The notes under the pieces were generated by a model that saw only the letters and a program-made list of their open reading frames with translations, was not told the DNA's origin and searched no databases. A stretch of DNA of 64,000 nt, taken from positions 2,758,270 through 2,822,269 of the forward strand of contig CP003179.1 in the NCBI GenBank assembly GCA_000237975.1, written 5' to 3'. Below are positions 4,296 through 52,687 of the stretch, piece after piece. A program made the position numbers and the translations under genes. Source of the DNA: Sulfobacillus acidophilus DSM 10332. Its GTDB lineage: Bacteria; Bacillota; Sulfobacillia; Sulfobacillales; Sulfobacillaceae. The first letter of the stretch is position 1. Each line of letters opens with the position of its first letter.

Positions 4296-4303
4296 GAATA
4301 AAC

Positions 4304-4423
4304 TGGTCGGCACGGCCTGATGATCCCAGTCCCCGACGGGACCAGTAGTCTCAGCGTACGGGCGGGGGACGACCGTGTTCGGCATGGGAACGGGTCAACT
4401 CACCCGGCGCAACGCACCGACCA
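4304..4423 (-). rRNA. rrf: 5S ribosomal RNA (operon 1)
   Basis: The gene is about 120 nt long. Its ends TGGTCGG and CCGACCA are complementary and form helix I. Internal conserved blocks such as CGTGTTCGGCATGGGAACGG (plus-strand reading) match 5S rRNA. It is identical to the copy at 11966-12085. Confidence 0.93.
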
Positions 4424-4461
4424 AACTTACCGCCCTTCCGGGCGTTCACAACTTCCGAGGA

Positions 4462-7372
<2,911 letters not shown>

Positions 7373-7405
7373 TCCTCTGAAGTTGTCAACGTCCTGGTGT
7401 CGTGA

Positions 7406-7480
7406 TGGTGGGCCAGGTGGATTTGAACCACCGACCTCCCGCTTATCAGGCGGGTGCGCTAACCCCTGCGCCATCGGCCC
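7406..7480 (-). tRNA. tRNA-Ile (GAT anticodon), spacer tRNA of operon 1
   Basis: The sequence has a D-stem (GCGC), anticodon arm CCCGC-CTGATAA-GCGGG with anticodon GAT, T-arm GGTGG-TTCAAAT-CCACC and a 3' ACCA. It sits between 16S and 23S, a standard place for tRNA-Ile(GAT). It is odd in the acceptor: the 5' strand GGGCCGA faces only six bases (TGGCCC) before ACCA, so the stem has six pairs and one unpaired A7. The D-loop is also one base short. The gene is absent from operon 2. Confidence 0.85.
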
Positions 7481-7528
7481 CCGACGCCCGGTCCTTCCAA
7501 ACCATATCATCATGCCGCCACGGCTCCC

Positions 7529-9074
<1,546 letters not shown>

Positions 9075-9168
9075 TCGGTAAAACACCGTCATACTTCAAA
9101 CACATTCTTGCGTGTGGCATGATGATATAGTTTTCAAGGACCGGGACTGTCTCGCGACAGCAACAAGG

Positions 9169-9197
9169 ATATTATCATCTTCCCGACCAAGGTTCAA
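9169..9197 (-). promoter_or_regulatory. rRNA operon 1 promoter
   Basis: On the minus strand TTGAAC (9197-9192), a 17-bp spacer and TAATAT (9174-9169) form a strong promoter, with TGA before the -10. The leader that follows has a CTGTC-TCGC-GACAG hairpin and a boxA-like CCTTGAAAACTATA (about 9140-9127), as in Bacillus rRNA leaders. Confidence 0.75.
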
Positions 9198-11949: not shown

Positions 11950-11965
11950 TGTTGCAGGAAAATAA

Positions 11966-12085
11966 TGGTCGGCACGGCCTGATGATCCCAGTCCCCGACG
12001 GGACCAGTAGTCTCAGCGTACGGGCGGGGGACGACCGTGTTCGGCATGGGAACGGGTCAACTCACCCGGCGCAACGCACCGACCA
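11966..12085 (-). rRNA. rrf: 5S ribosomal RNA (operon 2)
   Basis: Second copy, identical over the mature gene to 4304-4423, with the same complementary TGGTCGG/CCGACCA ends. One base differs in the spacer just beyond it. Confidence 0.93.
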
Positions 12086-12123
12086 AACCTACCGCCCTTC
12101 CGGGCGTTCACAACTTCCGAGGA

Positions 12124-15034
<2,911 letters not shown>

Positions 15035-15105
15035 TCCTCTGAAGTTGTCAACGTCCGGAAGGACCCGGTCCTTCCAAACCATATCATCATGCCGCCACGG
15101 CTCCC

Positions 15106-16651
<1,546 letters not shown>

Positions 16652-16745
16652 TCGGTAAAACACCGTCATACTTCAAACACATTCTTGCGTGTGGCATGAT
16701 GATATAGTTTTCAAGGACCGGGACTGTCTCGCGACAGCAACAAGG

Positions 16746-16774
16746 ATAGTATCACCCATCATGAATCACTTCAA
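16746..16774 (-). promoter_or_regulatory. rRNA operon 2 promoter
   Basis: On the minus strand TTGAAG (16774-16769), 17 bp, TACTAT (16751-16746), again with TGA before the -10. The architecture equals that of operon 1 although the surrounding bases differ, which supports both assignments. Confidence 0.75.
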
Positions 16775-26351: not shown

Positions 26352-28888
26352 GCGTCTCCCCCTTCCGCTTCCGCTCCGTGACAACGCTTATATTTCTTTC
26401 CGCTGCCACACCAACACGGATCGTTTCGGCCAATGGTCCCGGGCTCTTTAGGCGCCTTGCCGCCGGCAATGACCTGAAAAGGTCCCCGGGATCCGGGATC
26501 GGGAGCGGCGATCGCCTCCGGCACCGGTAAATTTATAGCCGGCGCCATTTGCACATGGAACAACATGCGAATAACCTCTTCGCGAATCGCCCCGACCATG
26601 TTTTGGAACATGTCATAGGCCTCGGTCTTATATTCCACCAGCGGGTCCCGTTGTCCGTAAGCCCGGAGGCCGACACCTTCCCGCAGCGCCTCCATGGCAT
26701 CCAAATGCTCAACCCACTTGGCGTCGACCACTCGCAGCATGATCACGCGCTCCAGTTCCCGCATATTGTCTGGGCCAATTTCTTCTTCCTTTTTGGCATA
26801 GAGCTCTTCGCCATACCGGAGGAGCGTCTCGACCAATTCGTCTCGACTCATCCCCTGAATTTCGTCCAGCGGCACGGTATCTAACGGCAGGAACACCTCC
26901 GCTAAACTCTTGACCAAGGCCTCAAGGTCCCACTCCTCGCGGTGAAGGTTTGGCGGACAATGGGCGTCCACGGCATCTTCGATGACACCTTTTAACATGT
27001 GCAGCACATCATCCCGCAGACTGGGTTGGGTTAGAATGTCACGCCGCTGTTTATAGACAACTTCCCGTTGTAGGTTCATCACATCGTCATATTGCAACAC
27101 ATGCTTACGGGCATCGAAGTTGCGGGCTTCCACCTTTTTCTGGGCCGATTCTATCGCGCGGGTCAAAGCCGGACTTTCTATCGGGTCATCTTCATCGACC
27201 CCTAGCCGGTCCATCAACACGGATAGCGTCGGAGCGGCAAACAACCGTAAAAAGTCGTCTTCCAACGATAAATAGAAGCGCGAGGAGCCGGGATCACCTT
27301 GACGCCCTGCCCGTCCTCGTAACTGGTTGTCGATACGGCGGGATTCATGCCGTTCCGTGCCAATAATGTGAAGCCCCCCCATTTCGGCCACTCCCGGTCC
27401 CAATACAATGTCGGTCCCGCGGCCTGCCATGTTGGTGGCGATCGTCACGGCGCCGGGTTGGCCGGCTTGCGCGATAATTTCGGCCTCCTGCTCGTGGTAC
27501 TTGGCATTCAACACGTTGTGCGGTATGCCCCGCTCTTTCAACATCTGACTTAAATGCTCGGATTTCTCAATCGACACCGTCCCTACGAGTACCGGTCGGC
27601 GTTGACGATAGAGTTCCTCGATTTCCCGTACGACCGCCCGGAATTTAGCCGCCTCCGTCTTATACACCACATCGGGATAGTCTTTCCGAATCATGGGCTT
27701 ATTGGTCGGGACGACAATGACGTCGAGTCCATAAATCTTCCGAAATTCCTCTTCTTCGGTTATCGCCGTTCCGGTCATACCGGCCAGTTTTTGATACATG
27801 CGGAAGTAGTTTTGGAATGTAATCGTCGCCAACGTTTGGGTTTCTTCTTGGATCTTGACGCCTTCCTTAGCTTCAATTGCTTGGTGGAGGCCGTCGGAAT
27901 ATCGCCGACCAAACATCAGACGGCCGGTGAATTCGTCTACGATAATGACTTCGCCGTCTTTGACCACATAATCCCGATCACGCTTCATGAGCGCTTGCGC
28001 TCGGAGGGCCTGGTTTAAGTAGTGGGCATAATCGAGATGGGCGTCGTCGTATAGGTTAGACACCCCCAACATCCGCTCGACTTTGGCCACCCCGGCCTCG
28101 GTCGGTGCCACCGCCTTCATTTTCTCGTCAACCGTATAATCCCGGCCTTCCTTCAGGTTCCGGACGATGCGGGCAAACGTATAATAAAGTTCCGTCGAGC
28201 GCTCCCCTTGGCCGGAAATAATCAAAGGAGTCCGCGCCTCGTCAATCAAAATACTGTCGACCTCGTCCACGATGGCGTAATGGAGGCCGCGCTGCACCAT
28301 GTCGTCGAGCGTCAGTACCATATTGTCACGGAGATAATCAAATCCAAATTCATTATTGGTTCCATAGGTTATATCCGCGGCGTAGGCGGCTTTCCGTTCC
28401 GGAGCCTCCATGTCGTGTTGAATCAGCCCCACCTTGAGGCCCAAAAATTCATAGAGTTGGCCCATCCATTTCGCATCACGGCGTGCCAGGTAGTCGTTTA
28501 CCGTCACCACATGGACTCCCTGGCCCGGCAGGGCATTTAAATAGGCGGCTAACGTCGCCACCAGCGTCTTTCCTTCACCGGTTTTCATTTCGGCAATCCG
28601 CCCGTCGTTGAGCACCATCCCACCGATGAGCTGGACGTCGAAATGGCGCATCCCCAACACTCGCTTGGAGGCTTCTCGTACGACCGCAAACGCCTCCGGC
28701 AAGATCTGGTCCAATGTTTCTCCCTGGCTCAGCCGATCACGGAATTCGTCCGTTTTCGCCTTGAGGGCGTGGTCGGTCAGTTTCTCCACTGCCGGTTCCA
28801 GCTGATTGATCTTTGCAACAACGGCCCGATAACGGCGCACTTCCCGCTCACTAAACCGATTCACCCAATTGGACAACATCTTCAACAT
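26348..28888 (-). CDS. secA: Preprotein translocase ATPase SecA
   Basis: This 846-residue motor drives protein export through SecYEG. Walker A TGEGKT is at 103-108, followed by the DEAD-type [16 protein letters not shown], the motif [12 protein letters not shown] and the preprotein-binding and scaffold domains. The C-terminal zinc finger [14 protein letters not shown], for SecB or ribosome contact, is intact. The start is taken at ATG 28888 ([12 protein letters not shown]), with GGAGG upstream; ATG 28906 would place that site inside the gene. Order hpf...secA-prfB matches Bacillus. Confidence 0.96.
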
Positions 28889-28988
28889 GACGGCATGGTC
28901 CTCCATTCAAACAACCAAAAGGAACCTGACCCAGGTTCCCGCACGTGTAACACCTATCGATTTAGTGTAGCATGGGCCTGTCGACGCA

Positions 28989-30347
28989 TCAAGTTGAGGA
29001 ATCCGGCGGATTTTCCGCCTGAAACGCACGAATCTCGTCCTCACGCAGTTGTTGAATCTCTTCTCCCGACATGGCAGGCGTTCGGTCCCATCCGTGCCCG
29101 GAACCTTCATCCAACGCGAGATTGACGGTTTCACAAAGCTCGATAAACTTCTGGACTACAATCGGATCAAACTGGGTTCCCGCTTCCGCACCAATTTCCT
29201 GCACCGCTTCCTCGTGATTCATGGCACGCCGGTAGGGGCGGTCGGACGTCATCGCGTCATAGGCATCCACAATTGAAACGATCCGCGTTTCCAAAGGGAT
29301 TTCTTCCGCCCGAAGGTTATCGGGATATCCGGTGCCGTCCCACCTTTCGTGATGGTGCAACACCCAGTCACGGGCACAGCCCACCAATTGAACGTGGCTG
29401 AGCATTGCACTACCCAAAAGGGGATGCCGTTGAATGATTTCCCGCTCCCAGGGATCGAGGGCCCCCCGTTTATTTAAGATGTTGTCCGGAGTGGCCATTT
29501 TCCCGATATCGTGGAGCATCCCGGCATACCGGATTTGTTCCACCACGTCTTCAGGCAACTTCATAAATCGGGCCAGCACCGCTGCATAGTGCCCCACCCG
29601 CATCGAGTGGCCAAAAGTGTAGGGATCCTTGGCATCGAGGCCAATCAACAAAGCCCGAATACTTTGGTTGTACATATCACGGACCCGCTTGATAAAGACC
29701 ATCCACCAGCGGGTAGCCGCCAACGGCAATAAGAAAATTAACTCCGGCCATGGACCGGAAAGGTGGTAAACTTCAGCCATCAGGTATCCGATCGGTAGCA
29801 TGAGCCAAAAACTGGGGAGCATCCATTTGAAGTAAACTCGAATAACTTCCCAAAGACTGCGTTCCTCTTTTATCGCAATAGCAATTGCCAATAACAGGAG
29901 GTTCTCAAGGAAAGCGGCGATCGAGGAAATCAACAGCGGAACGCTAGCATGAGCCAAATTTAAATGGTTTACATCGCCGCCAAAATAGCTAAACAATTTG
30001 GCAGACGACCATCCAACAATTGCAAATTGCGCTCGATTAAAGGCCACAGAAAACCAACGGACTTTACCATGTAGTTCTTTCTATGTCCATGAAAAACCTC
30101 CTGAAATCCAACATCCCGCTGCAGGGCCGAGCGCAATGCTCGTGGCTACCATAACTGGAAGCGTTACCGATACCAATCCTTTTCCACGTATCATCTCAAT
30201 AGCAACAACCGAACTCAAAAGCACGGCAATTGCAAAAACGCCATCGGCTGTTGTTATATGATACCAAAACCGAAACGTAGCAATATAAATTATTGCTCCA
30301 ATCAAAATGACCGACCCAACGTACGCTTTAAAGTTAAAAGAATACAT
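28989..30347 (-). pseudogene. Membrane HD-GYP phosphodiesterase gene interrupted by an in-frame amber codon
   Basis: Two frames in the same phase are separated only by TAG at 30083-30081 (codon 89). The first part (30347-30084) starts MYSFNFKAYVGSVILIG and forms the first membrane segments, ending GGFSWT. After TAG the frame continues KELHGKVRWFSVAFNRAQFAIVGW, more membrane segments and a complete HD-GYP domain (HDIGK, HHERWDGTGYP), which hydrolyses cyclic-di-GMP. The join reads as one continuous sensor domain (W-x-ELxGKVxW...FNRAQ). A GTG at 30047 could restart translation and give a 352-residue product lacking the first segments. It is therefore a nonsense mutant, a split gene or a read-through case. 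AAGGGCGG precedes the ATG at 30347. Confidence 0.8.
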
Positions 30348-30371
30348 GGCGTTAACCGCCCTTCAGCTCTA

Positions 30372-30399
30372 ACTATAACAACTGATCATGATGTGAAAA
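30372..30399 (-). promoter_or_regulatory. Weak candidate promoter for the HD-GYP gene
   Basis: On the minus strand TTTTCA (30399-30394), 16 bp, TATAGT (30377-30372), about 25 bases before ATG 30347. The rest of the gap 30400-30605 holds nothing recognisable. Confidence 0.3.
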
Positions 30400-30605
30400 T
30401 TATTCGGCCAAAGCGGTGTTTTTAAAGGTCCATGTGAACTCCAAAACCCCCGGATACTAAAACGTTCATTAATCCGGAAACGAGGTTGCGAACAATCCCC
30501 TTCATCATTTGGCCAGCTACTCCTATCGTAACGGCCACGACAGGGCACCCGCTATGTTACCCTGCCTCTGAAGTTCGCTCGTTCACGCACCGTTGGTCGA
30601 AACCT

Positions 30606-31223
30606 TTAAACTTTTTGTCCGCTGTAGAGGATAAAGCGGCGATTGATTGCGTCAAGTACAGCCCGGATGACCGCATCCTCCAGGGTGTCATAGACTACGG
30701 CGTTGCCTGCCATCACCTCCCCATCGGCATCCCCGACCACAATCAGCGCTATGGTCCGACCGGCAGCAGGTAGTTCCTTGGCTTCCACGACATGTAATCC
30801 CGCGGCGGGGCCCAACGCCTGATTGACCGCGTTCAAGGTGGCGCCTGCCATCGCCAAAACCACAGTAGCTGAAACAGCCTCTCCATGATATTGCCGTTCC
30901 CCGTAATACAGCCGACTTTCCGCTCGATAACCGCTTTGATGAAAGCCGACCGCATAGCCTCCGATTTTCAACCTCCCCATCGACGGCCGGGACAACTCGG
31001 GACTTTGGGTTTTAACCATCACGATTTGCTCCGGGTTCAGCTCGGTCCACCCATAACTGCGAAGCAATGCGACGATTTCCCGCAGGACTTGGCGTGGGGC
31101 ACTTTCGCTGTGACTTACCACGCGCACTTCGACGTCGCCGTTGTCTTGCGAGATAATCTCGGCGTGGTCAATGTGCGGAACCCGCCGTAACACCGCTTCA
31201 AATTCCCGGTACCGGTCCTCCAT
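30606..31223 (-). CDS. Conserved protein of unknown function beside hpf
   Basis: This encodes 205 residues from ATG 31223, which has AGGAGGCGG just upstream. The N-terminal half (about 1-75) is an alpha/beta segment with HAEIISQDNGDVEVRVVSHSESAPRQVLREIVALLRSYG. The C-terminal half, after a Pro/Arg-rich linker, reads VSATVVLAMAGATLNAVNQALGP...ALIVVGDADGEVMAGNAVVYDTLEDAVIRAVLDAINRRF. It has no membrane segment and no catalytic motif I can name. The two-part organisation resembles unnamed proteins I recall from Clostridia, without function. It follows the hpf terminator, so it is a separate unit. Confidence 0.7.
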   Translation of the reverse strand: MEDRYREFEAVLRRVPHIDHAEIISQDNGDVEVRVVSHSESAPRQVLREIVALLRSYGWTELNPEQIVMVKTQSPELSRPSMGRLKIGGYAVGFHQSGYRAESRLYYGERQYHGEAVSATVVLAMAGATLNAVNQALGPAAGLHVVEAKELPAAGRTIALIVVGDADGEVMAGNAVVYDTLEDAVIRAVLDAINRRFILYSGQKV

Positions 31224-31291
31224 AGCCGCCTCCTCTACGGAACACGTCGATCTATTTCGACTTCCATATGCCAATTCCTGCTTGAAGCCCG

Positions 31292-31325
31292 AAAAAAGGA
31301 GGCCTTTTTAGAAAAAAGGCCTCCG
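31292..31325 (-). terminator. Terminator after hpf
   Basis: On the minus strand GGAGGCCTTTTT and AAAAAGGCCTCC form a 12-bp stem followed by TTTTTTC. Confidence 0.85.
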
Positions 31326-31345
31326 GTGCTTTGTCGATTTACGCC

Positions 31346-31861
31346 TTAACGCGGCTCTAAGAGTCCGTAGTTCCCGTCCTGCCGTCGGTAAAGCACATTA
31401 ATGGTGTCCGTTTCGGCATTGGTGAACGCAAAGAAATCATGTCCGAGGAGTTCCATCTGCATCATCGCTTCGTCCACCGTCATCGGCTTACGCGGAAACG
31501 TTTTGCGCCGGACTAACGCCGAATCCCCTTCCTCTCCGGAATCCTCCAACACCCCTTTAGTGTCATTCAGATGACGGGGCTTTAATCGCGTCTTGTATTT
31601 ATCGAGTTGCCGCTCTAATTTGTCTACCACCCGGTCCACGGCCACATACATATCGGGATGGGCCTCCTCACCCCGCAAAAGATACCCTCCCACGGGAACC
31701 GTCACCTCAACAATGTGCCGGTCTTTTTCCACACTCAATCGGGCCTGTGCCGTAACCTCTTGATGGTCGAAATATTTTGACATCTTTGAGAGTTTTCGTG
31801 TTACGTGGTCTTTCAACGCGTCCGTGACTTCAACGTTTTTACCGCGCACGATGACGTCCAT
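31346..31861 (-). CDS. hpf: Long-form ribosome hibernation promoting factor
   Basis: This 171-residue protein has the N-terminal S30AE fold (MDVIVRGKNVEVTDALKDHVTRKLSKMSKYF, about 1-100). A linker leads to the C-terminal dimerisation domain (KTFPRKPMTVDEAMMQMELLGHDFFAFTNAETDTINVLYRRQDGNYGLLEPR). Long HPF alone makes 100S ribosome dimers in resting cells. ATG 31861 follows AGGGGTG; the upstream extension to 31927 is not conserved. It has its own promoter and terminator. Confidence 0.95.
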   Translation of the reverse strand: MDVIVRGKNVEVTDALKDHVTRKLSKMSKYFDHQEVTAQARLSVEKDRHIVEVTVPVGGYLLRGEEAHPDMYVAVDRVVDKLERQLDKYKTRLKPRHLNDTKGVLEDSGEEGDSALVRRKTFPRKPMTVDEAMMQMELLGHDFFAFTNAETDTINVLYRRQDGNYGLLEPR

Positions 31862-31925
31862 CTTTTGACACCCCTCGTACGTTGCCAGTTTACCGTGCCG
31901 GCAATCAAGCCGGTTTGGTAGCCAC

Positions 31926-31931
31926 ATTATA
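31926..31931 (-). promoter_or_regulatory. Extended -10 element of hpf
   Basis: TATAAT preceded by TGG on the minus strand, about 65 bases before the hpf start. No clear -35. Confidence 0.45.
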
Positions 31932-31960
31932 CCACAGCCGGACAGCCCCGATATAACGAG

Positions 31961-31981
31961 AAGGCCGGGAGTCCCGGCCTT
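31961..31981 (-). terminator. Hairpin after the cold-shock gene
   Basis: AAGGCCGGG-ACT-CCCGGCCTT is a perfect 9-bp stem. The following bases (CTCGTTATAT) are not a good T-run, so termination may be weak or factor-assisted. Confidence 0.5.
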
Positions 31982-32005
31982 CAGCCACCGTCGAACTAGA
32001 AACTT

Positions 32006-32209
32006 TTAGAGGCGGACAACATTGGCGGCTTGTGGACCGCGGTCACCCTCTACAACCTCAAATTCGACACGCTCGCCTTCGTTGAGCGTTCGGAAACCTT
32101 CGCCATTAATGGCACTGTAGTGTACAAAAACGTCGCCGCCGTCTTCCCGCTCAAGAAACCCGTAGCCTTTTTCCGCGCTAAACCATTTGACGCGTCCGGT
32201 CATATTCAA
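32006..32209 (-). CDS. Cold-shock family RNA chaperone
   Basis: This 67-residue single cold-shock domain has RNP1 KGYGFLE (about 14-20) and RNP2 VFVHYSAI (27-34). It binds single-stranded RNA or DNA and melts secondary structure. The TTG at 32209 has AAAGGGG at ideal spacing and gives [13 protein letters not shown] 32203 is also possible. The leader is short (about 43 nt), unlike the long regulatory leaders of E. coli cspA, so thermal control at the RNA level is not obvious here. Confidence 0.93.
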
Positions 32210-32258
32210 AACTTATCCCCTTTCTTAAAGACGCCCCGCAAGCAGAGCGACCGCGCTC

Positions 32259-32287
32259 AATATAGCATTCGCTGCCATAAAAGTCAA
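32259..32287 (-). promoter_or_regulatory. Promoter of the cold-shock gene
   Basis: On the minus strand TTGACT (32287-32282), exactly 17 bp, TATATT (32264-32259), with TGC before the -10. A near-consensus, strong promoter. Confidence 0.75.
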
Positions 32288-32417
32288 ACGATATCGGGTG
32301 ACTGGGATCGACGGCCAGGTCTGCCAGCGTTTGACAGACGTTCTCACCTGGGGATAGTGGGGATAAGTCTGTTGATAACAATAAAATGAAGCATTTGCGA
32401 TGGGGATAAATGTCAAA

Positions 32418-34031
32418 TTATCGAGAATCGGAGGAGACCCTGTCGCGCCGTTGTTGCTTCATGAGATACATCCGCTGGTCGGCCGTTCGTAAAAGCTCTT
32501 CCGCCGTCGTTCCGTCGTCGGGCCAGGTGGCGATACCGACGCTGGCCTGAATCGGCAGTGTTACCGGTGAAAAATCGTGCTCCCGAATCCGCGTCCGAAT
32601 CCGCTCCAGAACCCGTGTAGCGGCCGGGCCATCGGCGCGCCGTAAAAGGAGAATAAATTCGTCCCCGCCATAACGGGCCAACACGTCATCCGGTCGGATT
32701 TCTAATCGGATGAGGCGGACAAATTGTTCCAACACGCGGTCTCCCATGAGGTGGCCATATTGGTCATTAATCTCTTTAAACCGGTCCATGTCCAAGAAGG
32801 CCAGCGTAAAGGGTGCTTCTTCGCGCATGACCAGCTCCTCCAGCACATGGCGCAAGTGACGAAAGTTGTAGAGTTCGCTAATCACCGGGTCGGCGTGCGC
32901 TAACCGAAGAGAATCCTGATGAAAGACCCATTTCCGAACCGCCAACGCTAAACTGCTGCCCAAAGCCTGCGCCAATTCCCGTTGATGGGCCGAATAGGCT
33001 TGGGCGGCGGTACTGCCCACGATGAGTAACCCCCATACGTCCCGTCCGGTTGCCAACGGTATGAGAAATCCGGAACGGAGCGCCCTATCAGGAGATTGAG
33101 GCTGTTGAATCCATTCGAGCCGGCGTGTAGCCAAGGCCCAGCTCCCGAAGGGATAAGGGGGGCTCAAGTACAATGGATATGGTAGCTCGTCGCCGGTCGG
33201 ATGAATCACGTTAATACGCCGAAACCCGTTTTGTGAGCGGTCGATTAAATACAGCCCAAAAATGTGATGCGGAATCGCTTCCGAAAAAATATCCAGGGCC
33301 GCATTCCAAATATCCGTATCCGTGGTCGCTTCCGCCAACTTAACCGCCCCCTCCGCCAGCCAGCGGTTTTCTCGTCGGTCACGGCGAGTGAAAAAATAAA
33401 ACCGCATTAAGAATGCGGACGTCAGATACGGTAAGATCGCCAAGAGTTCCAATCCCGGGCGGTGGGGATAGGCGTGAACCAACAGCACAAAAATACTGAC
33501 CAACGGCAGACTGATAAACCAACTGATAGCATCCCACAAAAGACCCTGCATGATCGCCGCTCGCCGCATTTGGCCGTCACGGATCCAATAATACACATCA
33601 ATCAAGAGATGGTTCACCATAAGAAAGACCACGGCAAAGAGCAATAACCGCCCCAGGGCGAAGGGACCTGAGGGCCCGACGAGTGAGGCCGCCCATAAGG
33701 ATAGGATGTCGACGGCCAAATTGCCCCATGATTTGATGCCGCGGTAGTGCCCCACCCAACTGACGAGAGTTCCCACTAACAGTACCGCCACCGCAGCCGG
33801 AAGCCCCCCGAGGAAATAGGCCGAAATATATCCCGCCGTCGAAAGGGTGACGGCACCCCGCTCCATGGGTAACGGGCCGAGGCCGTCCAACGCCACCATA
33901 CCGGCGGTTAACCCGAAGCTTAACCCCGATAGAGGGCGCCCGGAGGCCACGGGCATCGTGAACCACATGACGCCGGTCAAAAAAACTAACAGCCCGAAAT
34001 AGAAGTTTGCTATGCGCGTCCTAGCATTCAT
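32418..34031 (-). CDS. Membrane diguanylate cyclase with GAF-like sensor
   Basis: This 537-residue protein has about six N-terminal membrane segments (up to about 200), a GAF-like region (about 230-370) and a C-terminal GGDEF domain. The active-site loop RYGGDEF is intact, and RPDD five residues before it is the product-inhibition site (RxxD), so it should make cyclic-di-GMP with feedback control. ATG 34031 follows GGGGATG. The N-terminal sensor resembles that of the interrupted HD-GYP gene nearby, suggesting opposing enzymes under related sensing. Confidence 0.92.
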   Translation of the reverse strand: MNARTRIANFYFGLLVFLTGVMWFTMPVASGRPLSGLSFGLTAGMVALDGLGPLPMERGAVTLSTAGYISAYFLGGLPAAVAVLLVGTLVSWVGHYRGIKSWGNLAVDILSLWAASLVGPSGPFALGRLLLFAVVFLMVNHLLIDVYYWIRDGQMRRAAIMQGLLWDAISWFISLPLVSIFVLLVHAYPHRPGLELLAILPYLTSAFLMRFYFFTRRDRRENRWLAEGAVKLAEATTDTDIWNAALDIFSEAIPHHIFGLYLIDRSQNGFRRINVIHPTGDELPYPLYLSPPYPFGSWALATRRLEWIQQPQSPDRALRSGFLIPLATGRDVWGLLIVGSTAAQAYSAHQRELAQALGSSLALAVRKWVFHQDSLRLAHADPVISELYNFRHLRHVLEELVMREEAPFTLAFLDMDRFKEINDQYGHLMGDRVLEQFVRLIRLEIRPDDVLARYGGDEFILLLRRADGPAATRVLERIRTRIREHDFSPVTLPIQASVGIATWPDDGTTAEELLRTADQRMYLMKQQRRDRVSSDSR

Positions 34032-34131
34032 AAAACGGGTTCATCCCCGGTGGGTCGTTATATCAAGTAAAATTTTGTCAAAACGTTATAGTCATTCGCG
34101 AAATGTTACGAGTTTCCTGCCGGACGGCATG

Positions 34132-34593
34132 TTAATCGGAAATTTTGTTCATCGGGGGATGGAAAAATAACATGCGTTGAACCGTCGCCAAAAGTCCCGA
34201 TACATTGTCGGAATCGGTGAGTTCGACCCAGAGAATAATGGGATAGCGGCAGCGAGACAATATGGCGTCCTTGCCTAAGGCGGCGGACACCACATGAATC
34301 GCCGGGTACTGGCGCGCCAAGCGGTCCAGAATAGCCGGCGTCTGATCGTGAGACTCATGCTCGACCAAGATAAATTCCAAACGCGGCGCGGTCTGAGCGG
34401 TATCTTGCCATAACCCTTGCAATTGCCGAATCGCCCGCTCAATCTGCGCTTCTTGATTTGTCAGGGATAAGACCACGCTGACATGGGGAATGTGAACATC
34501 CGGAGTCGCCAATAACTTGCCGTAAATCCACTCCAAAAGGACCACTAACCCATATAGCGCCAAGGCTAACCCTAATGCTCCCCACCATGTCAC
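34132..34593 (-). CDS. Small membrane-anchored glycosyltransferase-like protein
   Basis: This encodes 153 residues from GTG 34593, preceded by GGGAGG. One N-terminal membrane segment (about 4-25) is followed by HVSVVLSLTNQEAQIERAIRQLQG...LEFILVEHESHDQTPAILDRLARQYPAIHVV. That has the shape of the first half of a family 2 glycosyltransferase (VSVVIP...VVDDGSTDGT). The nucleotide-binding DDGS is replaced by EHES, and no DXD or acceptor half follows. It is probably a degenerate or specialised stub. Its ribosome site lies in a hairpin (34597-34637). Confidence 0.6.
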   Translation of the reverse strand: MTWWGALGLALALYGLVVLLEWIYGKLLATPDVHIPHVSVVLSLTNQEAQIERAIRQLQGLWQDTAQTAPRLEFILVEHESHDQTPAILDRLARQYPAIHVVSAALGKDAILSRCRYPIILWVELTDSDNVSGLLATVQRMLFFHPPMNKISD

Positions 34594-34596
34594 AAT

Positions 34597-34637
34597 GCTC
34601 CGCCTCCCTGTCCGATATATACGGAGGAAGGCGGAGC
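34597..34637 (-). promoter_or_regulatory. Hairpin between metK and the small glycosyltransferase-like gene
   Basis: GCTCCGCC (34637-34630 on the minus strand) pairs with GGCGGAGC (34604-34597). The second arm and the adjacent GGGAGG form the ribosome site of the downstream gene, so the stem could hide it. It has no T-run, so it is a poor terminator. Confidence 0.45.
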
Positions 34638-34651
34638 CTCATAACCGGAAA

Positions 34652-35848
34652 TTATGCGCGGGAAACCCCTGCCTCGGCTAACAATTGGTCGACCCGGTTC
34701 GTCCGTTCCCACGGTAGTTCAATATCGGTCCGCCCGAAATGGCCGTATGCCGCGGTCTTTAGATAAATGGGGCGCTGCAAATCTAAGGCCTCGATAATGG
34801 CTAAGGGCCTTAAATCGAATACCTCTCGGACCAATTCGGCTAGTCGATCGTCCGGAAGCCGACCGGTACCAAACGTGTCCACCATAATGGAAATCGGTCG
34901 CGCGACCCCGATGGCGTAGGCAATTTGAATTTCCGCCCGGTCGGCCAAGCCCGCCGCCACGAGGTTTTTAGCCACCCACCGCGCGGCATAGGAAGCCGAT
35001 CGGTCGACCTTAGTCGGGTCCTTACCGGAAAAGGCGCCTCCACCGTGCCGGGCGTAACCTCCATAGGTATCGACAATAATTTTCCGTCCGGTCAGTCCGG
35101 AATCTCCATGAGGACCCCCGATAACAAAACGGCCCGTCGGGTTTACCAAAATACGGGTGTCCGACGTGAGCCAGCGATCCCCTAAAACCGGACGGATGAC
35201 ATGATGGATGACCCCTTCCCGCACGTCATCGGATGACGCGTCGGGTGTGTGTTGAGTCGACACCAGAACCGTATCGACGGCAACCGGTTCTCCATTCTGG
35301 TACCGAATCGTCACTTGGGTTTTCCCGTCCGGCCATAAAAATGGTAACACCCCCTCTTTACGCACCTCTGCCAAGCGGCGCGACAACCGGTGGGCCAGTG
35401 AAATGGGCAAAGGCATCAATTCCGGGGTTTCCCGGCAGGCAAAACCGAATACCATCCCTTGATCGCCGGCTCCAATGGTCTCTTTCGGATCCGACAGGCC
35501 TTGACGCGATTCCAGCGCTTGGTCCACTCCCTGAGCGATGTCGGGAGACTGCTCGTCGATCGACGTCAGCACCGCTAGGGTATCGGCGTCAAATCCCATT
35601 TTAGCCCGTGTATACCCGATGTTGCGGATCGTTTCCCGCACCACTTTAGGAATATCGACGTAGCAATCGGTCGAGATTTCGCCCACCACCAACGCTAGTC
35701 CCGTCGTCACGACCGTTTCCGCTGCGACCCGGGCATCGGGGTCATGAGTCAAAATGTTGTCCAAAATCGCGTCAGAAATCTGGTCTGCCACCTTATCCGG
35801 GTGCCCTTCGGTCACCGACTCCGAGGTAAATAAAATATCGCGCCCCAA
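34652..35848 (-). CDS. metK: S-adenosylmethionine synthetase
   Basis: This 398-residue enzyme makes SAM from methionine and ATP. The start TTG 35848 lies six bases after GGAGGAGG and gives [27 protein letters not shown]. The methionine-loop region [12 protein letters not shown] and the P-loop-like [16 protein letters not shown] are both present. The longer open frame to 36160 covers the riboswitch and is not coding. Expression is controlled by the SAM riboswitch upstream. Confidence 0.96.
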
Positions 35849-51611: not shown

Positions 51612-52687
51612 TAGGCTTCCCGACGCATGCGCTCTTCTTCGGCTGCGGCGTGCAGTGCCTCAATCAACTCGTCTAAATCGCCGTCCAAGATGGCTTCAAT
51701 GCGATGAAGGGTTAGCCCAATGCGATGATCGGTTACGCGCCCCTGGGGAAAATTATACGTTCGGATTCGCTCGGAACGGTCGCCCGTACCCACTTGTGAG
51801 CGCCGTTCGTCCCGGATGGCGTTGGCCGCCTCTGTCTCATAAAGATCTTGCAATCGCGATCGTAAAATCCGCATGGCTTTTTCCCGGTTTTTCAATTGGG
51901 ATTTCTCGTCTTGACAATACACCACGATGCCTGTGGGCAAGTGAGTAATGCGCACGGCCGACTCGGTTTTGTTCACGTGCTGACCGCCGGCCCCGCTGGC
52001 TCGTTGGGTGTCAATCCGGAGTTCGTCGGGATTGATGACCACGTCGGTCTCTTCGGCTTCCGGGAGCACGGCGACCGTCACCGTCGACGTATGAATACGG
52101 CCTTGGGCTTCGGTCACCGGTACCCGTTGCACCCGATGCACGCCACTTTCATACTTCAACAGGCTATAGGCTCCCCGGCCTTCAATCATGAAGATAATTT
52201 CTTTAAAGCCTCCAATATCGGTCGGGCTTGACGAAAGCACTTCCGTCCGCCAGCCGTGACGCTCCGCGAACCGCACATACATCCGGTACAACTCGGCCGC
52301 AAATAAGGCCGCTTCGTCCCCCCCGGCCCCGCCGCGAATTTCCATAATGACATTTTTACTGTCATTGGGATCCCGCGGTGCCAAGAGTTGTTGAATCTCC
52401 CGTTCCCATCGGTCTAATGCCTGACGTAACCGCTCAACTTCGCTTTCCGCCCACTGGCGAGCCTCGGGATCGTCATCTCGCGCCATATCTTTCGCCACTT
52501 CCAAATCCGCTTCGGCCGCCACATACGCCTCATAGGTATGCACTAATTGTTCGGCCTCCGCCAGCTCTTGCCCGTACTTTCGGGCGAGCTCGGGATTGGA
52601 CGCCACGGTCGGATTGGCCATCTCTTCTTGCAACTCTAGATATCGTGCCTTTGCCGACTCGCATCGGGCACGCTGAATCTCGTCCAT
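51611..52687 (-). CDS. prfA: Peptide chain release factor 1
   Basis: This 358-residue factor ends translation at UAG and UAA. The stop-recognition motif is P-V-T ([13 protein letters not shown]), the PxT form of RF1, and the catalytic GGQ is in [17 protein letters not shown] 52687 is the family start; the longer frame to 52738 overlaps the rpmE terminator. RF1 is the factor that would act at the amber codon in the HD-GYP gene. Confidence 0.95.

Follow-up and report, generated by a model that had tools for sequence, protein, structure and literature searches.

The interrupted gene and its neighborhood

The window analyzed here, a stretch of 64,000 nucleotides of the Sulfobacillus acidophilus DSM 10332 chromosome, contains on its minus strand a single frame that runs from ATG 30347 to a stop at 28989 and is broken only by a TAG (Table 1). 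Around this break the minus strand reads GGA GGT TTT TCA TGG ACA TAG AAA GAA CTA CAT GGT AAA, and the phase on either side of the TAG at 30083-30081 is identical, as stated correctly in a preliminary description made from the sequence alone. Shine-Dalgarno pairing upstream of ATG 30347 amounts to -8.1 kcal/mol, and the first usual start downstream of the TAG is GTG 30047. As both flanks of the TAG align with the orthologue family, and as the column itself is ungapped and is occupied by a sense codon in every relative, we are dealing with one interrupted gene and not with two neighbors in chance phase. A frameshift near the stop can be rejected, as the other two frames close soon and the similarity to the family stays in one frame. 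The stretch 29700-30500 is AT-rich, with a GC content of 39-48% versus 57% for the genome.

Table 1. Features of the interrupted gene and of the nearby GGDEF gene (window coordinates)
Feature	Position	Strand	Basis or remark
5' part, first membrane helices of the sensor, ATG ORF of 88 aa	30081..30347	-	ORFs, orthologue alignment, model
In-frame TAG	30081..30083	-	Sense codon in 20/20 orthologues
Frame continuation, about four further membrane helices and HD-GYP domain (PF13487, 138 bits)	28989..30080	-	
Possible restart product, 352 aa, four helices and HD-GYP, from GTG 30047	28989..30047	-	Start use presumed
AGGAGG-TTTTTC-ATG and out-of-frame 8-codon ORF (MDIERTTW)	30064..30102	-	-11.0 kcal/mol; absent here in relatives
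Intact GAF-GGDEF gene, separate from the broken gene	32418..34031	-	

The gene is predicted to encode a membrane-sensor HD-GYP c-di-GMP phosphodiesterase. The match to Pfam HD_5 scores 137.9 bits versus a cut-off of 27.2, and the HD, HHE, and GYP motifs (HDIGK, HHERWDGTGYP) are intact in an alignment to 4mcw (E=3.1e-38). In the window protein and in its relatives, a KDPYTFGH-like sequence stands where 4mcw has its E-T-x-x-H stretch, and the metal site may therefore be a different one. In a structure model of the read-through protein (mean pLDDT 67.5, about 78-91 near the break), residue 89, the position of the stop, falls between predicted helices 75-84 and 98-121. According to this model, the stop sits inside the membrane sensor and not at the sensor/HD-GYP junction, with about four membrane helices after it; of the earlier statement that an amber codon separates the sensor from the HD-GYP domain, the split of the frame thus holds and the place of the split does not.

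The order hpf - hypothetical - HD-GYP - secA is common to the window and to two relatives with intact genes, L048 and L043. The related GGDEF gene nearby is intact, as previously noted, and it is not adjacent in either L048 or L043; judging from this gene order, it would not be a conserved partner of the HD-GYP gene. The genome has 11 GGDEF, 9 EAL, and 5 HD_5 matches, four of the latter outside the interrupted gene (two of these four may share one gene). As only one hydrolase would be lost, among 9 EAL and about four other HD-GYP matches, the net c-di-GMP level is unpredictable, and the earlier suggestion of a balance shifted toward c-di-GMP was a weak one. An Rfam scan of 28800-34700 produced no match at gathering score, and no c-di-GMP riboswitch. 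Between the hpf-like and the GGDEF genes (31957-32332), the cspA thermoregulator is matched below threshold (21 bits versus a gathering score of 78), probably by chance.

The genome comprises 3,557,831 bases, of which the chromosome makes up 3,472,898, and the published sizes are 3,472,898 and 84,933 (PMC3558970). Interrupted genes are common in it: 155 pseudogenes have been published (PMC3558970), from which about 2.8 would be expected per 64 kb. One possible further truncated gene is a 153-aa ORF at 34132-34593, whose match to a glycosyltransferase family 2 domain covers only the start of that domain, positions 1-59 out of 168. Elsewhere in the window, 4297-9177 and 11961-16754 are two copies of about 4.9 kb, 99.8% identical; the former is an rRNA operon (23S, tRNA, 16S, minus strand), and the ORFs listed there are not genes.

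Relatives and the age of the stop

The comparison covers 20 full-length orthologues from related genomes, DSM 10332 being the only S. acidophilus and the only Sulfobacillus genome in the set. All 20 are single uninterrupted ORFs. In the column of the TAG they have Q (7, CAG or CAA), Y (6), R (4), W (1), I (1), or S (1), and the codons seen are CAG, CAA, TGG, TAC, TAT, CGN, ATC, and AGT, several of which are one base change away from TAG. As every one of the orthologues is uninterrupted, with a sense codon in this column, the break is particular to the DSM 10332 lineage among the genomes compared; if strain TPY (CP002901) turns out to have the same TAG, then the break predates the divergence of TPY and DSM 10332. 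The same alignment speaks to the idea that homologues may naturally be encoded as two proteins broken at the same place, which the preliminary description had considered: with 20 of 20 being single ORFs, the idea is refuted for these relatives, and its probability overall is negligible. A search of viral contigs with the TAG junction, the first base of the stop left open, returned no match, and a literature search (Sulfobacillus c-di-GMP, HD-GYP, TPY GGDEF, MASE9) returned no paper discussing the interrupted gene.

Decay after the stop is typical of old pseudogenes, while young ones need not show it. In the window protein, none of the 59 columns of the HD-GYP part that are invariant in the 20 relatives are changed, compared with one of the 18 that follow the stop in the membrane part (R160K) and one of the 6 that precede it (P3S). 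With no decay after the stop, this would be a young pseudogene at most. In partition trees, the ratios of the branches of the window gene (part before the stop to HD-GYP part and membrane part to HD-GYP part) are inside the range of the relatives, with no special acceleration, and relaxed evolution of either half can be rejected on these grounds. As a rough bound, if the neutral rate is taken to be at least that of the 5'-part branch of the window gene (1.3 substitutions per site), the unchanged 59 columns would leave no more than about 4% of that branch for evolution free of constraint. There is some local drift, as seen in the third-position GC of the 5' part (0.36, below all 20 relatives) and in the nearly invariant P99, which is F in the window protein.

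The unchanged HD-GYP columns imply either that the stop is recent or that selection continues to act on the HD-GYP half, and the full downstream conservation fits continued use of this half as well as it fits recency. What favors recency is the short segment of 11 codons between the TAG and GTG 30047: it would be untranslated under restart, and it still matches the family (E91, W98, S100).

Ordinary stop, recoding, or restart

The likely explanation, in our view, is that a recent single-base nonsense mutation interrupted the gene for the membrane-sensor HD-GYP phosphodiesterase in the lineage of the S. acidophilus type strain, and that the TAG is an ordinary stop. A change of one base would have created the TAG in the sensor-coding part of the gene. 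As RF1 is present (chromosome positions 2809892-2810938, about 51623-52669 in the window, over cut-off) and as none of the tRNAs has a CUA anticodon, termination would be of the usual kind; the first product would be a membrane stub of 88 residues, and the full-length enzyme would be lost or reduced to trace readthrough, while some HD-GYP protein may still arise via reinitiation at GTG 30047. Of the options offered earlier, that of lost or altered c-di-GMP breakdown is thus supported to the extent that full-length protein would be lost or reduced, the gene being the only family member seen with a stop and RF1 being present.

The notion that the TAG is read as sense, by a suppressor tRNA, by pyrrolysine, or by programmed readthrough, draws on the frame being intact on both sides and on comparative work proposing frequent readthrough of in-frame bacterial stops (PMC7918605). 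However, among the 52 tRNA genes located and typed with ARAGORN none has the CUA (CTA) anticodon, so that the amber suppressor tRNA that had been proposed as a check is rejected. A permissive pattern for the CTA anticodon returned 19 matches: two fall within tRNA genes assigned by ARAGORN to Gln (ctg) and Glu (ttc), and the others do not overlap tRNA matches. Pyrrolysine decoding is likewise rejected, as matches to pyrrolysyl-tRNA synthetase (PylS) in the genome are only far below cut-off, and the relatives do not have the stop, let alone conserve it. Overall, the data lend no support to dedicated recoding, as raised in the preliminary description; readthrough at a low background level is possible, and we give sense decoding a very small probability. 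An error of sequencing or assembly at 30081-30083, also considered earlier, is scarcely more credible. It could be argued from the single genome of the species in the comparison and from the TAG being one base from the codons of several relatives. However, with the assembly at 219.6x coverage, polished with Illumina data, and with a stated error of less than 1 in 100,000 (PMC3558970), at most about 36 wrong bases would be expected in 3.56 Mb, few of them giving stops, compared to 155 pseudogenes, and thus an error is an unlikely source of the TAG.

A more serious alternative, possible but distinctly less probable than a simple nonsense mutation, is that the two halves of the gene are both functional: ribosomes would make the stub, terminate, and restart, either by way of the site at ATG 30090 described below or directly at GTG 30047, and the 352-aa protein would work alone, lacking the first helices, or with the stub. 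This alternative partly overlaps with the preferred explanation, which allows for low-level restart; what it adds is that the split form is functional. Downstream of the TAG, the frame stays open throughout and retains every one of the 59 invariant residues, and the strongest Shine-Dalgarno site around the junction, AGGAGG-6-ATG at 30102-30088 (ATG 30090; -11.0 kcal/mol), overlaps the TAG. The 8-codon frame that starts there ends at TAA 30066-30064, 16 nt upstream of GTG 30047, and this minicistron could feed reinitiation at the GTG; nothing comparable is found at the corresponding place in the 20 relatives. Genome-wide, the AGGAGG-spacer-ATG motif occurs 527 times versus 86 for the reversed control, which puts the chance density at one in roughly 83 kb of strand, and thus most instances of AGGAGG-6-ATG probably mark real starts. 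There is also precedent in Shigella flexneri, whose dgcQ, dgcN, and dgcE carry stops before the GGDEF domain and still raise c-di-GMP, with more than one protein made from some of them (PMC11327459). However, ATG 30090 is out of frame with HD-GYP, the site at GTG 30047 itself is poor (-2.2 kcal/mol), the motif was spotted only in hindsight, and the codons between the TAG and the GTG lack the decay expected for an old split. The restart at GTG 30047 envisaged in the preliminary description may therefore occur, given the open frame, the strong site nearby, and the Shigella precedent, with the weak pairing at the GTG counting against it. The most specific version, in which a new internal ribosome-binding site and the minicistron pass ribosomes to GTG 30047 to produce two cooperating or uncoupled proteins, is improbable. 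A promoter-like sequence at 30089-30061, immediately before GTG 30047, is a consensus match only.

In conclusion, a nonsense mutation with ordinary termination remains the preferred explanation, and the interrupted gene is most probably a pseudogene of recent origin, or one that yields a residual product by restart. We infer from sequence that the break is recent and that translation ends there in the cell, and the same holds for any restart. The case is an ordinary one, presenting a clear single stop in an otherwise perfectly kept signaling gene, in the complete genome of a biomining-relevant organism. Should the cell still produce the HD-GYP half, the restart finding in Shigella would extend to a hydrolase and to another phylum, and the case would caution against writing such genes off. 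If it does not, this is one more young pseudogene beside the 155 reported.

Comparison with known systems

The closest parallel is presented by the Shigella genes dgcQ, dgcN, and dgcE (PMC11327459), which share with the window gene a nonsense change before an intact catalytic domain and a start codon near the stop. While those genes encode GGDEF synthases, with activity tested and with two proteins seen on Western blot for some, the window gene encodes a predicted HD-GYP hydrolase, with a GTG start of weak Shine-Dalgarno pairing. Another comparison is with the in-frame stops under apparent purifying selection (PMC7918605), as here too one in-frame stop is found in a gene otherwise well kept; in contrast to those cases, the stop is known from one genome. 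As to the enzyme itself, the HD and HHE...GYP motifs of the solved HD-GYP phosphodiesterases (4mcw, 5z7c, 4r8z) are retained, while the N-terminal sensor is different, and Y stands in place of the glutamate that 4mcw has in its E-T-x-x-H stretch. The sensor was compared with MASE9 (PF20972), for which the intact relative L048 scores above the cut-off (27.3 versus 24.3 bits), whereas the window protein scores below it (19.6 bits); the stop lies within the sensor region, bordering the stretch that is matched.
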